From Clostridia bacterium (lineage in GTDB: Bacteria; Bacillota; Clostridia; UBA1381; UBA9506), in contig JAFYVH010000016.1 of assembly GCA_017549205.1 (NCBI GenBank), positions 1-64,000 on the forward strand: 64,000 nucleotides of DNA. Direction: 5' to 3'. Below, one piece after another: positions 31,005 through 33,930 of the stretch. How positions within the stretch are numbered: position 1 is the stretch's first letter; the number at the start of each line of letters is the position of its first letter. A model generated the notes under the pieces. That model saw only the letters and a list, made by a program, of their open reading frames with translations, was not told the origin of the DNA and did no database searches. The position numbers and the translations under genes are program-made.

Positions 31005-31358
31005 TTACCAGATTTCAACCACGGCAAAGCCTGCCTCTTCAATTTTGTTTTTAATGAGGGCATCTTCCACGGGTTTCTCGTAAGTAACCAAAGCAACGCC
31101 TTTTTCTAAGTCAACCGTGCCGGAGAGACCGCCAATTTCCCCAATTATTTCTTCAACACGGGCTTTGCAGTGCTCACAATGCATGCCTTCAATTTTAAAG
31201 GTCTTTTGCAGGATGGCGGCTTGCGAATCACAGCCGTTACAGGTGTCAGCGTGGGGGCAACCAATACATTTGACGCCTTTTTTCTTGGCCTTAACAATGT
31301 AAGAAAGTGCTGCCCCTGCGAGAATGATTAAAAGAATGATAGCAACTGCCGTTTTCAT
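31005..31358 (-). CDS. FeoB-associated Cys-rich membrane protein fused to an HMA domain
   Basis: A 117-residue protein with an unusual two-part build. Residues 1-45 are a FeoB-associated small membrane protein: one membrane segment followed by a Lys run and CIGCPHADTCNGC. Residues 50-117 form a heavy-metal-associated (HMA) domain with the metal site GMHCEHC and the usual beta-alpha-beta-beta-alpha-beta pattern. It may pass a metal or serve as a redox or assembly partner of the ferrous iron transporter. Start ATG lies nine bases after AAGGAG; the gene begins four bases after feoB. Confidence 0.87.
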   Translation of the reverse strand: MKTAVAIILLIILAGAALSYIVKAKKKGVKCIGCPHADTCNGCDSQAAILQKTFKIEGMHCEHCKARVEEIIGEIGGLSGTVDLEKGVALVTYEKPVEDALIKNKIEEAGFAVVEIW

Positions 31359-31362
31359 GTCT

Positions 31363-33393
31363 TTACATCTCCTTGCCTGTAAGGCTTGTTTTTACAGCTT
31401 TATTGGCATGCATCCCCATGACGATAATTGCGGCGGTGATACAAAGAACGGCAATCAGTCCACCGATTACACCAACCATATTAAGCCTGTCGCCAACAAT
31501 GAAAGAGCCAATGGTATAAACAAGATAGGCCGCTGTGTAACCGACACCAAGCTGAAGACCAATGCCGCCCCAGAACCATTTTGCGCTTTTCATTTCGGCA
31601 TTCATGGCACCTATGGCCGCAAAACATGGCGGTGAATAGAGATTGAACACTAAATAGGCAAGGGCAGCCACCTTTGTAATTGCCATAATGCCGGCAACCT
31701 CGCCGCCTGCACCCTCCATAAGCGCCAGTTCTTCCGTATTAATGAGATTTTCAAGACCAACAAAGCAAACGGCTAAAGTGCCCACAACATTTTCTTTGGC
31801 AATAAAGCCTGTGATGGCTGCTGCTGCCAACTGCCAGGAGAGAACGCCAACGACAGGAAAGAGCAGATAGGCAAAAGGAGATGCCAAAGAAGCGAGGATG
31901 GATTGGTCGGCCGATTCGGCAACCGAAAAGCTCCAGGTAAAAGATTGCATCAGCTGCACAGCCATGTTGCAGAGAAGAATGATGGTAGCGGCTTTTACAA
32001 TGTAAGCCCAACCACGACTGCACATAGACTTGAATGCACCCCACAGTGATGGCGCCCTATAGTCGGGAAGTTCAATGATAAAAAAGTTCTTTCTTGCCTT
32101 ATATCCTGTTACAAAGTTAATGAGCAGAGCACCCAAAAAAATAAGTGCAATGCCGGCAAAATACATGAGTGCGCTAAGCCACCAGGCGTCCCCGAAAAAG
32201 GCGCCGGCAAAAAGGGCAATAACCGGAATTTTGGCACCGCAAGGCATAAAGGGGGCAAGCATGGCAGAGGCTCTGCGTTCCCGCTCATTGCGAATGGTAC
32301 GGCTTGCCATAACTCCGGGAACAGCACAGCCAATGGCGATTACAAAGGGAATCACTGATTTGCCGGAAAGACCAACTTTTTTAAAGATGGGGTCAAGCAC
32401 AACAGCGGCACGGGACATATATCCGCAGTCCTCTAAGAGAGCAATGAGGAAATACATGACCATAACAAGAGGAAGAAAACCAACAACGGCAACCAAACCG
32501 CCAATAACACCATCAACCAAAATGGCAGGAATCAGAGGATTTGCATTTTCAAAGAATCCGCCGACCCAGCCCTGAAAACTTTCAAGAATGGGAACAAGTC
32601 CGGGAATGAATGTTCCGTTTTCAAACTCGTAACCGTCGGCAATCCAGGTGCCAAGCGTGGTTTGGGAAATGTAGAACACAAGGAACATAACAGCGGCAAA
32701 AATCGGAATACCCAGCCACTTATTTGTAAGAACAGCATCAATCTTATCGCCAATGTTCTTATCCTTAGTAAAAACTTTGCGGGTTTCAACATCCCCTACA
32801 ATTTTATTGACAAAGTCAAAGCGCTTACGGTCGGCCATGTTGACAGCCATCTTATCCGTCAGGTCAACATAAGTTTGTATGTAAGGAGCGCTTTGGCTTT
32901 TGCCTACCTGTGCAACAGCTGTTCCAATGAGCATTTTTAATCCGTCTGCCGAAGTAGAAATGGTTTTAACAACAGGACAGTGCAGTTTTGCCGAAAGTGC
33001 ATCGGCATCAATTTCGTTACCCTTTTTTTCATTAATATCACTTTTGTTTAAAGCAACAACAACAGGGATGCCAAGCTCTAAAAGCTGTGTAGTAAAAAAG
33101 AGGCTGCGACTTAAATTATCAGCATCCACAATGTTAATGATAACATCGGGGTTTTCGCTCTTAACATAAGTGCTTGCGATGCTTTCTTCACTGGTGAAAG
33201 GGGACATGGAGTAAGCACCGGGGAGGTCAACAGCAACAAGCTGTTCGTTTTCTGCATATGCTTTCTTTATAAGGTGTTCCTTTTTATCTACCGTAACGCC
33301 CGCCCAGTTACCAACCTTTTCGTTGCGACCTGTTAAAGCGTTATACATGGTGGTTTTGCCTGAATTTGGATTGCCTGCCAAAGCAATTCTCAT
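31363..33393 (-). CDS. feoB: Ferrous iron transport protein B
   Basis: A 676-residue inner-membrane Fe2+ transporter. The N-terminal GTPase domain has G1 GNPNSGKT (residues 7-14), G3 DLPGAYS, G4 NKSD, followed by a helical GDI-like domain and then the polytopic gate region with two inverted GATE motifs, including the conserved CAVPG. The ATG follows AAGGAGG by seven bases. It lies between feoA and the FeoB-associated protein; a GTTAGC/GCTAAC dyad sits just upstream of its ribosome site. Confidence 0.97.
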   Translation of the reverse strand: MRIALAGNPNSGKTTMYNALTGRNEKVGNWAGVTVDKKEHLIKKAYAENEQLVAVDLPGAYSMSPFTSEESIASTYVKSENPDVIINIVDADNLSRSLFFTTQLLELGIPVVVALNKSDINEKKGNEIDADALSAKLHCPVVKTISTSADGLKMLIGTAVAQVGKSQSAPYIQTYVDLTDKMAVNMADRKRFDFVNKIVGDVETRKVFTKDKNIGDKIDAVLTNKWLGIPIFAAVMFLVFYISQTTLGTWIADGYEFENGTFIPGLVPILESFQGWVGGFFENANPLIPAILVDGVIGGLVAVVGFLPLVMVMYFLIALLEDCGYMSRAAVVLDPIFKKVGLSGKSVIPFVIAIGCAVPGVMASRTIRNERERRASAMLAPFMPCGAKIPVIALFAGAFFGDAWWLSALMYFAGIALIFLGALLINFVTGYKARKNFFIIELPDYRAPSLWGAFKSMCSRGWAYIVKAATIILLCNMAVQLMQSFTWSFSVAESADQSILASLASPFAYLLFPVVGVLSWQLAAAAITGFIAKENVVGTLAVCFVGLENLINTEELALMEGAGGEVAGIMAITKVAALAYLVFNLYSPPCFAAIGAMNAEMKSAKWFWGGIGLQLGVGYTAAYLVYTIGSFIVGDRLNMVGVIGGLIAVLCITAAIIVMGMHANKAVKTSLTGKEM

Positions 33394-33438: not shown

Positions 33439-33454
33439 GTTAGCGGTTGCTAAC
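33439..33454. promoter_or_regulatory. Operator-like dyad upstream of feoB
   Basis: GTTAGC-N4-GCTAAC. The same dyad with matching outer bases occurs upstream of feoA at 33771-33786. The half-site resembles those of DtxR/IdeR-type metal repressors, but the regulator is not identified here. It could also form a short mRNA hairpin. Confidence 0.55.
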
Positions 33455-33488
33455 TTTGGTGCAAAAATAAAAAACTTTAAAAAGACAA

Positions 33489-33701
33489 TTAAACTAAAAT
33501 GGCTTCTGCAAGCTGCCGGTCAATGCTGTAACGACCATCTTTGATAGACACAACACAACTGTTTTTGCGGCGAGAGACAACAGAGATGGTTTCACCGCTG
33601 TAGCATCCCAGAGAAAATAAAAAAGAATTTAATTCTTCATCATCGGTTGCAATAGCAGAAATAATGTAATCTTTTCCCATTGTTGCTTCCATAAGATTCA
33701 T
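33489..33701 (-). CDS. feoA: Ferrous iron transport protein A
   Basis: A 70-residue SH3-like cytoplasmic protein that assists FeoB. The pattern fits the family: a hydrophobic strand, LFSLGCYSGETISVV turn (normally LxxLGLxxGxxVxVV) and a terminal LAEAILV strand. Start ATG is preceded by AGAGG at ten bases. It is the first gene of the feo operon, downstream of a consensus promoter and two dyad elements, so it is probably repressed when iron is sufficient. Confidence 0.92.
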   Translation of the reverse strand: MNLMEATMGKDYIISAIATDDEELNSFLFSLGCYSGETISVVSRRKNSCVVSIKDGRYSIDRQLAEAILV

Positions 33702-33744
33702 AGTGAATGCGCCTCTTCTTTCCAGTCATCTAAAACAGATTTTA

Positions 33745-33763
33745 TGTACATAGCCTATGTACA
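33745..33763. promoter_or_regulatory. 19-bp palindrome in the feoA leader
   Basis: TGTACATAG-C-CTATGTACA is a perfect 9-bp palindrome with a one-base centre, between the promoter and the feoA start. It may be a second regulator site, unlike the GTTAGC dyad in sequence. Confidence 0.55.
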
Positions 33764-33770
33764 CCTATTA

Positions 33771-33786
33771 GTTAGCCTCTGCTAAC
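33771..33786. promoter_or_regulatory. Operator-like dyad at the feo promoter
   Basis: GTTAGC-N4-GCTAAC begins about nine bases past the -10 box of the feo promoter, overlapping the expected transcription start. It matches the feoB-proximal dyad at 33439-33454. Confidence 0.7.
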
Positions 33787-33794
33787 CATGGGGT

Positions 33795-33823
33795 ATTATA
33801 TCACGAGAAACAAGCTGTGTCAA
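33795..33823 (-). promoter_or_regulatory. feo operon promoter
   Basis: On the minus strand TTGACA (33823-33818) and TATAAT (33800-33795) are exact consensus hexamers with a 17-base spacer. Confidence 0.93.
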
Positions 33824-33893
33824 GTGCTTTTTGAAAATTTTGTTAATGAGCATAAAGAGAGCGACAACATCTTTTAAAAAAGGCAAAATAATG

Positions 33894-33930
33894 ACAAAAA
33901 ACAAGGCCGCTTGTGTATGACAAACGGCCA
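33894..33930 (-). terminator. Terminator of the ClC channel gene
   Basis: GGCCG..TTGT pairs with ACAA..CGGCC (33905-33929), and the minus strand continues TTGTTTTTTG. It lies ten bases after the ClC stop codon. Confidence 0.85.

Follow-up and report, generated by a model that had tools for sequence, protein, structure and literature searches.

The two perfect palindromes found at the feoA and feoB genes of the DNA analysed here are very probably operators of a short, metal-dependent repressor of the DtxR family that lacks the SH3-like domain, as judged from sequence comparison. One of them lies at the predicted transcription start of feoA and the other in the gap between feoA and feoB (Table 1). 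Coordinates refer to the window, that is, the whole stretch of 64,000 nucleotides that was analysed; the genome assembly to which it belongs (G000) has 1,393,360 bases in 21 contigs and is 91.88% complete. According to the proposed mechanism, at sufficient ferrous iron a repressor dimer would bind TTAGC-N4-GCTAA, one dimer per dyad. The repressor bound at 33771-33786 would cover the feoA transcription start and block initiation, and that bound at 33439-33454, just past a T-tract, would most likely be a roadblock keeping RNA polymerase on a terminator, with feoB staying off even if some transcripts clear the first gate. Iron scarcity would open both gates.

Table 1. Features of the feo locus in the window.
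Feature	Position	Strand	Remarks
Promoter dyad GTTAGCCTCTGCTAAC	33771-33786	none	Perfect palindrome; predicted operator at the feoA transcription start
Internal dyad GTTAGCGGTTGCTAAC	33439-33454	none	Perfect palindrome in the feoA-feoB gap; proposed roadblock operator
feoA promoter, TTGACA-17-TATAAT with TG ahead of the -10	33795-33823	minus	12/12 match to consensus
T-tract TTTTTTATTTTT (minus-strand reading)	33463-33474	minus	Ends 8 nt ahead of the internal dyad
feoA, 70 aa	33489-33701	minus	Pfam PF04023 FeoA, E 8e-13
feoB, 676 aa, ferrous iron transporter	31363-33393	minus	TIGR00437 above cut-off; PF02421, PF07670, PF07664
FeoB-associated-like N-terminus fused to a heavy-metal-associated (HMA) domain	31005-31358	minus	PF00403 above cut-off; PF12669 FeoB_associated below its cut-off

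The original prediction, made from the letters of the window, had described two matching perfect dyads, and both are present as described. GTTAGC-N4-GCTAAC occurs exactly twice in the 64-kb window, with a mean of 0.01 matches in 100 dinucleotide shuffles of it, none of which (0/100) contained two or more. A scan of the genome for clustering at iron genes had also been suggested; G000 contains two exact matches and both are at feo. A chance origin of the window dyads was rejected on these two results. One further G000 match with a single mismatch lies within a gene of the phage integrase family, so that exact and one-mismatch matches reveal no wider dyad regulon in G000 beyond feo. With up to two mismatches, G000 gives 41 matches and the reversed control 28, which indicates that the weak matches are mostly due to chance. 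The dyads had further been said to share the flanks AG before and TGG two bases after. An A does precede each dyad and TGG does stand two bases past both, although the G of AG already belongs to the dyad, as its opening base. In the 144 sites of relatives described below (best 80 of 558 relatives), notable information (0.61 bit) is confined to the base directly adjoining the dyad (A/G). The TGG flank is therefore not conserved, and it was discarded as a component of the site.

Conservation was followed in a sample of 20 genomes of the same family, each of which has a FeoB match, in some cases to distant relatives only. The strict dyad GTTAGC-N4-GCTAAC is found at 14 sites in 7 of these 20 genomes (control, 1), 13 of them at feoA, feoB or feoA-regulator loci and one inside a phage-like gene (named by eye). 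The shorter pattern GTTAG-N6-CTAAC has 41 sites in the 20 genomes, 34 of them at feo or regulator loci, and the reversed control has 32 in total; the enrichment of this pattern is visible by location, not by raw counts. The remaining seven sites comprise one ahead of an orphan feoA, two ahead of a DUF3793-flavodoxin gene pair, one ahead of an HMA P-type ATPase and three inside genes, namely an integrase, an rRNA dimethylase and the phage-like gene mentioned above. In two family genomes (G006 and G007; loci L023 and L031), the feoA promoter dyad appears by eye to be wider or altered, with a TTAG-CTAA gap beyond N6.

A second sample (the named loci) was drawn from named genomes and comprised 80 regulator loci, the best of 558 relatives found. 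Since the search used four regulator queries of the Arg type (see below), this sample is biased towards the Arg subtype; nearly all of its members are titled as Clostridia-type metagenome assemblies, mostly from animal guts. Among these best 80 of 558, spacing 6 accounts for 144 TTAG-N-CTAA pairs and no other spacing between 0 and 20 for more than 10. TTAG ranks first of all 256 half-sites at spacing 6, followed by the simple sequences TTTT (110) and AAAA (97). All 44 loci with divergent feo genes have a dyad no more than 700 bp from the regulator, as do 5 of the 36 loci without them. Seven of these 36 have less than 1.5 kb of upstream sequence, and the five that carry a dyad correspond to divergent genes of another kind, a locus with flavodoxin or the end of a contig. 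Of the 144 sites, 90 lie in the interval from regulator to feo, 24 immediately precede feoB, 11 precede a regulator for which no feo was found, and 19 are elsewhere.

The same dyads precede DUF3793 and flavodoxin genes in relatives (L104 4456-5273; L144 4467-5136, by eye; L082 1501-3016; L165 2818-3394), and this placement suggests that DUF3793 could be part of the response to iron limitation. Another locus (L108 5302-5382) shows three dyads ahead of a ZIP-family metal transporter.

The candidate regulator is a DtxR-family protein of 123 aa encoded on another contig (C18:45903-46271), unlinked to feo. No other protein in G000 scores above the Pfam cut-off for DNA-binding domains of the DtxR type; a second match, below cut-off, looks by eye like a GntR protein encoded next to an ABC transporter. 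Both PF01325 and PF02742, corresponding to the N-terminal HTH and the metal-binding/dimerisation domains, score above cut-off in the C18 protein, and the chain stops past the dimerisation domain, leaving no C-terminal SH3-like domain. It aligns to DtxR with an E value of 5e-14, the recognition helix included. Relatives of this regulator are present in 19 of the 20 family genomes; nine of these 20 have the regulator gene in divergent orientation beside the feo genes, with dyads between them. For instance, in G013 feoA and the regulator gene stand back to back with a single perfect dyad between. No dyad was detected at the gene of the C18 regulator itself, and autoregulation in G000 was discarded on this basis. 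The absence of a dyad at this gene and its lack of linkage to feo count against the operator assignment. Of the DtxR- or Fur-family regulators initially envisaged, the first kind has thus a candidate; the Fur family is considered below.

The resemblance of the half-site to DtxR/IdeR-type metal sites, which had been pointed out before, holds as kinship, but the spacing is that of a half site for a single dimer and not that of the 19-bp DtxR box, and a C follows TTAG. In the case of IdeR, the half site TTAGG-N4-CCTAA is taken up by a single dimer (PMC8464063). Both window dyads share with it the TTAG-N6-CTAA spacing, and the regulator belongs to the same family. However, the base after TTAG is C in all four window half-sites, not G, and in relatives it is mostly C (regulators with Arg) or T (regulators with Val). 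Sites are single or in tandem at 29-36 bp, and the regulator has no SH3 domain. Unlike the full DtxR/IdeR operator (19-bp TTAGGTTAGSCTAACCTAA, two dimers), neither window dyad holds a second, overlapping TTAG-N6-CTAA.

The identity of the base adjoining TTAG varies with the regulator subtype. In the alignment with DtxR, regulator residue 40 corresponds to Gln43 of IdeR/DtxR; of 126 regulator loci, 85 carry Arg and 41 carry Val at this residue (duplicates included; the named loci being the best 80 of 558 relatives). With duplicates removed and the same named loci, the base adjoining TTAG is C in 216 of the 268 half-sites of the 53 Arg loci; the 44 half-sites of the 11 Val loci show T in 34 cases and C in 2. 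The regulator tree separates Arg from Val only once. Mapped on the feoB tree, the regulator shows 5 changes of type. Operator and regulator types match in 24 of 26 loci, the exceptions being G016 and L108, and there are three supported independent pairs and none contrary. Because these pairs are only three, co-variation on the feoB tree is not significant alone, and with one split on the regulator tree it was rejected as independent evidence. In IdeR, Gln43 contacts the first C of CCTAA through the sole direct hydrogen bond to a base, and it is also reported to be dispensable for correct binding (PMC8464063). For this reason, residue 40 is proposed here only tentatively as the determinant of the base.

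With respect to the metal, residues M7, C98, E101 and H102 of the Arg subtype occupy the positions of M10, C102, E105 and H106 of DtxR; three of these primary-site residues are kept in the Val subtype, with N in place of the Met. The ancillary site of DtxR is composed of H79, E83 and H98. The alignment shows that the regulator keeps H76 and has T and D at the positions of E83 and H98. Met10, Cys102, Glu105 and His106 are the primary ligands of DtxR (PMC4805248, PMC10317159), and the presence of Met and Cys is said to raise selectivity for Fe2+ over Mn2+ (PMC10317159). The DtxR-type ligands, together with the target genes, point to iron sensing, and iron is likely to be the signal. Against this reading stand the only partly kept ancillary site and a review in which the known SH3-less members of the family are described as not responding to Fe2+ in vivo (PMC7762939).

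Two other regulatory circuits were considered. The regulator could be manganese-responsive and MntR-like, feo being one target of a manganese circuit. Its top-scoring NCBIfam models are indeed those of MntR, its short two-domain architecture without SH3 is that of MntR from Bacillus and E. coli, and low-GC Gram-positives are reported in a review to employ DtxR proteins for manganese (PMC10317159). However, these scores are far below cut-off (MntR models NF003025 and NF008273; scores of 87.7 vs 153 bits and 70.1 vs 138 bits), the best solved relatives of the regulator are DtxR proteins, the primary-site residues of the Arg subtype are DtxR-type, with the Met and Cys pair said to favour Fe2+ (PMC10317159), and the dyads are placed at feo, orphan feoA and flavodoxin genes, all of which makes a manganese circuit unlikely. 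Control of feo through the dyads by a PerR-like protein, the only Fur-family member found in G000, can be given almost no credit. Fur usually controls feo elsewhere, and the Fur/PerR box is a 7-1-7 inverted repeat, TTATAATNATTATAA. Nevertheless, the best match to this consensus at feo is 10/14, at 33841, away from the dyads, the promoter of the PerR-like gene itself carries a Fur-type box of 11/14, and the protein scores best against PerR. Fur/PerR control of feo was rejected, no good box being present at the dyads. An iron-responsive DtxR-family repressor is the reading preferred here.

The placement of the second dyad at the start site of a consensus promoter, and its repressor-type position there, are both supported: 8 bases separate the -10 from the promoter dyad. 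This arrangement is general in relatives. A promoter scoring at least 10/12 lies within 45 nt upstream of the dyad in 43 of 44 named loci, compared to 1 of 44 random positions, and its -10 ends 7-10 nt ahead of the dyad in 43 of 44 loci, 7 or 8 nt in 35 of these 43 (best 80 of 558 relatives). Tandem dyads, common in relatives, either bracket TATAAT (spacing 29-30) or put the second dyad deeper in the leader (spacing 33-36); the window has the promoter-proximal dyad only, with no tandem partner there. At spacing 33-36, a T-tract lies between the 5' dyads on the sense strand in 20 of 31 relatives' pairs and on the other strand in 4 of 31. Below 33, it is present in none of 11 pairs, which have TATAAT or TATACT in between. 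Since the T-tract is less general at these positions, no terminator is claimed for all tandem 5' dyads.

The internal dyad was analysed in 95 loci, 15 from the family and the best 80 of 558 relatives, using the first dyad of each gap. In this sample, the 110 bp upstream of the feoB start contain a dyad in 39 of 60 cases and none in the other 21. A T-tract on the feo-sense strand ends 6-11 nt ahead of the internal dyad in 35 of the 39, and the mirrored arrangement is found in 2 of 39, so that the T-tract goes with the direction in which feo is transcribed and does not reflect a symmetric property of the binding site. Under a stricter rule, 28 of 39 have the T-tract, all of them ending 6-10 nt ahead of the dyad. 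Hairpins ahead of these T-tracts are stronger than in dinucleotide shuffles (mean -7.8 vs -5.2 kcal/mol; better in 24 of 35; Wilcoxon 7e-5) and, less clearly, than those preceding the remaining T-tracts in these loci (p 0.018), these comparisons also including the best 80 of 558 relatives. The hairpin of the window itself is weak (-1.3 vs -3.0 kcal/mol in shuffles). The geometry of T-tract and dyad suggests that a bound repressor could hold the polymerase on the terminator, and roadblock-assisted termination is the function that we favour, by a modest margin over doubt, for the internal dyad.

Separate control of feoB by the internal copy, as initially proposed, is upheld insofar as this dyad would have a role of its own. 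It is rather improbable, though, that the role consists in repressing a separate feoB promoter with no roadblock involved. Promoter dyads stand 7-10 nt past a -10 and the internal T-tract is at a similar distance, making a degenerate -10 imaginable, and the YtgR repressor of Chlamydia does both at trpRBA (PMC6504234). Against this, the best promoter scores in the 45 nt ahead of the internal dyads are 5-8/12 in 38 of 39 cases and 9/12 in one (best 80 of 558 relatives included), like those of random positions. A second promoter ahead of feoB was discarded on these background scores, and hairpins precede the internal T-tracts, which also argues against it. A very improbable alternative is that the dyads act as RNA hairpins, either stabilising the mRNA or forming a terminator stem. 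The dyad transcript would have a 6-bp stem and a 4-nt loop, a terminator scanner marks the internal dyad as terminator-like, and in some relatives the T-tract of tandem pairs at spacing 33-36 comes after the first dyad, which may double as a terminator stem there. However, in the 144 sites (best 80 of 558 relatives) the outer pair is broken in 44 and the inner pair in 41, positions 2-5 being fixed by the search pattern, and the choice of base tracks the regulator subtype.

Roadblock-assisted termination by a DNA-bound repressor has partial parallels. Repressor roadblocks are well known (PMC10310618), and YtgR, an iron-dependent repressor, raises termination of the upstream transcript at an intergenic operator of trpRBA (PMC6504234). 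Both systems share an intergenic site for an iron-dependent repressor, putative in our case. However, the YtgR operator also controls an internal promoter and belongs to a different pathway, whereas the arrangement described here concerns feoA-feoB of Clostridia, where the T-tract keeps a fixed distance from the dyad and no promoter was found. Pol I termination combines a similar set of elements (hairpin, roadblock protein and T-rich sequence; PMC12366685), but it is eukaryotic and not metal-regulated.

Sequence comparison shows the sites, their placement, the link to the regulator family and the geometry of the T-tract. A broader proposal, in which we place somewhat less than even confidence, is that in a large group of gut Clostridia ferrous-iron uptake might be under an SH3-less, iron-sensing DtxR protein that uses single-dimer half sites only, with one gate at the promoter and another 6-11 nt past a terminator T-tract tuning feoA-feoB termination, and with the residue at the Gln43 position setting the base next to TTAG. 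Reviews state that iron control in low-GC Gram-positives relies on Fur, DtxR proteins being restricted to manganese, and that the role of half sites is an open question (PMC10317159, PMC7762939). A half-site regulon at ferrous-iron genes of many gut Clostridia would offer a direct test of the division between Fur and DtxR, of the iron response of SH3-less proteins and of the role of half sites. The internal site would be a natural case of a metal sensor acting through transcription termination at fixed geometry. No earlier description of a DtxR-type half-site regulon at feo was found in open-licence PMC papers.

Some other elements of these loci deserve mention. The leader of feoA contains a perfect 19-bp palindrome, TGTACATAGCCTATGTACA (33745-33763), just downstream of the promoter dyad. 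Among 204 loci it is present only in the three copies of the window's own locus, and it was discarded as part of the system on this account. It could make an RNA hairpin or serve as a site for another regulator. A strong terminator-like hairpin (33905-33929) lies past a chloride-channel-like gene located upstream of feoA. In G000, the PerR-like gene (C21:86853-87197; L018 1471-1851) adjoins rubrerythrin- and ferritin-like genes (named by eye). The next gene past feoB, on the same strand, is the fused ORF of Table 1, whose N-terminus is cysteine-rich, and similar ORFs joining FeoB-associated-like and HMA regions were noticed by eye in loci L108 and L133.
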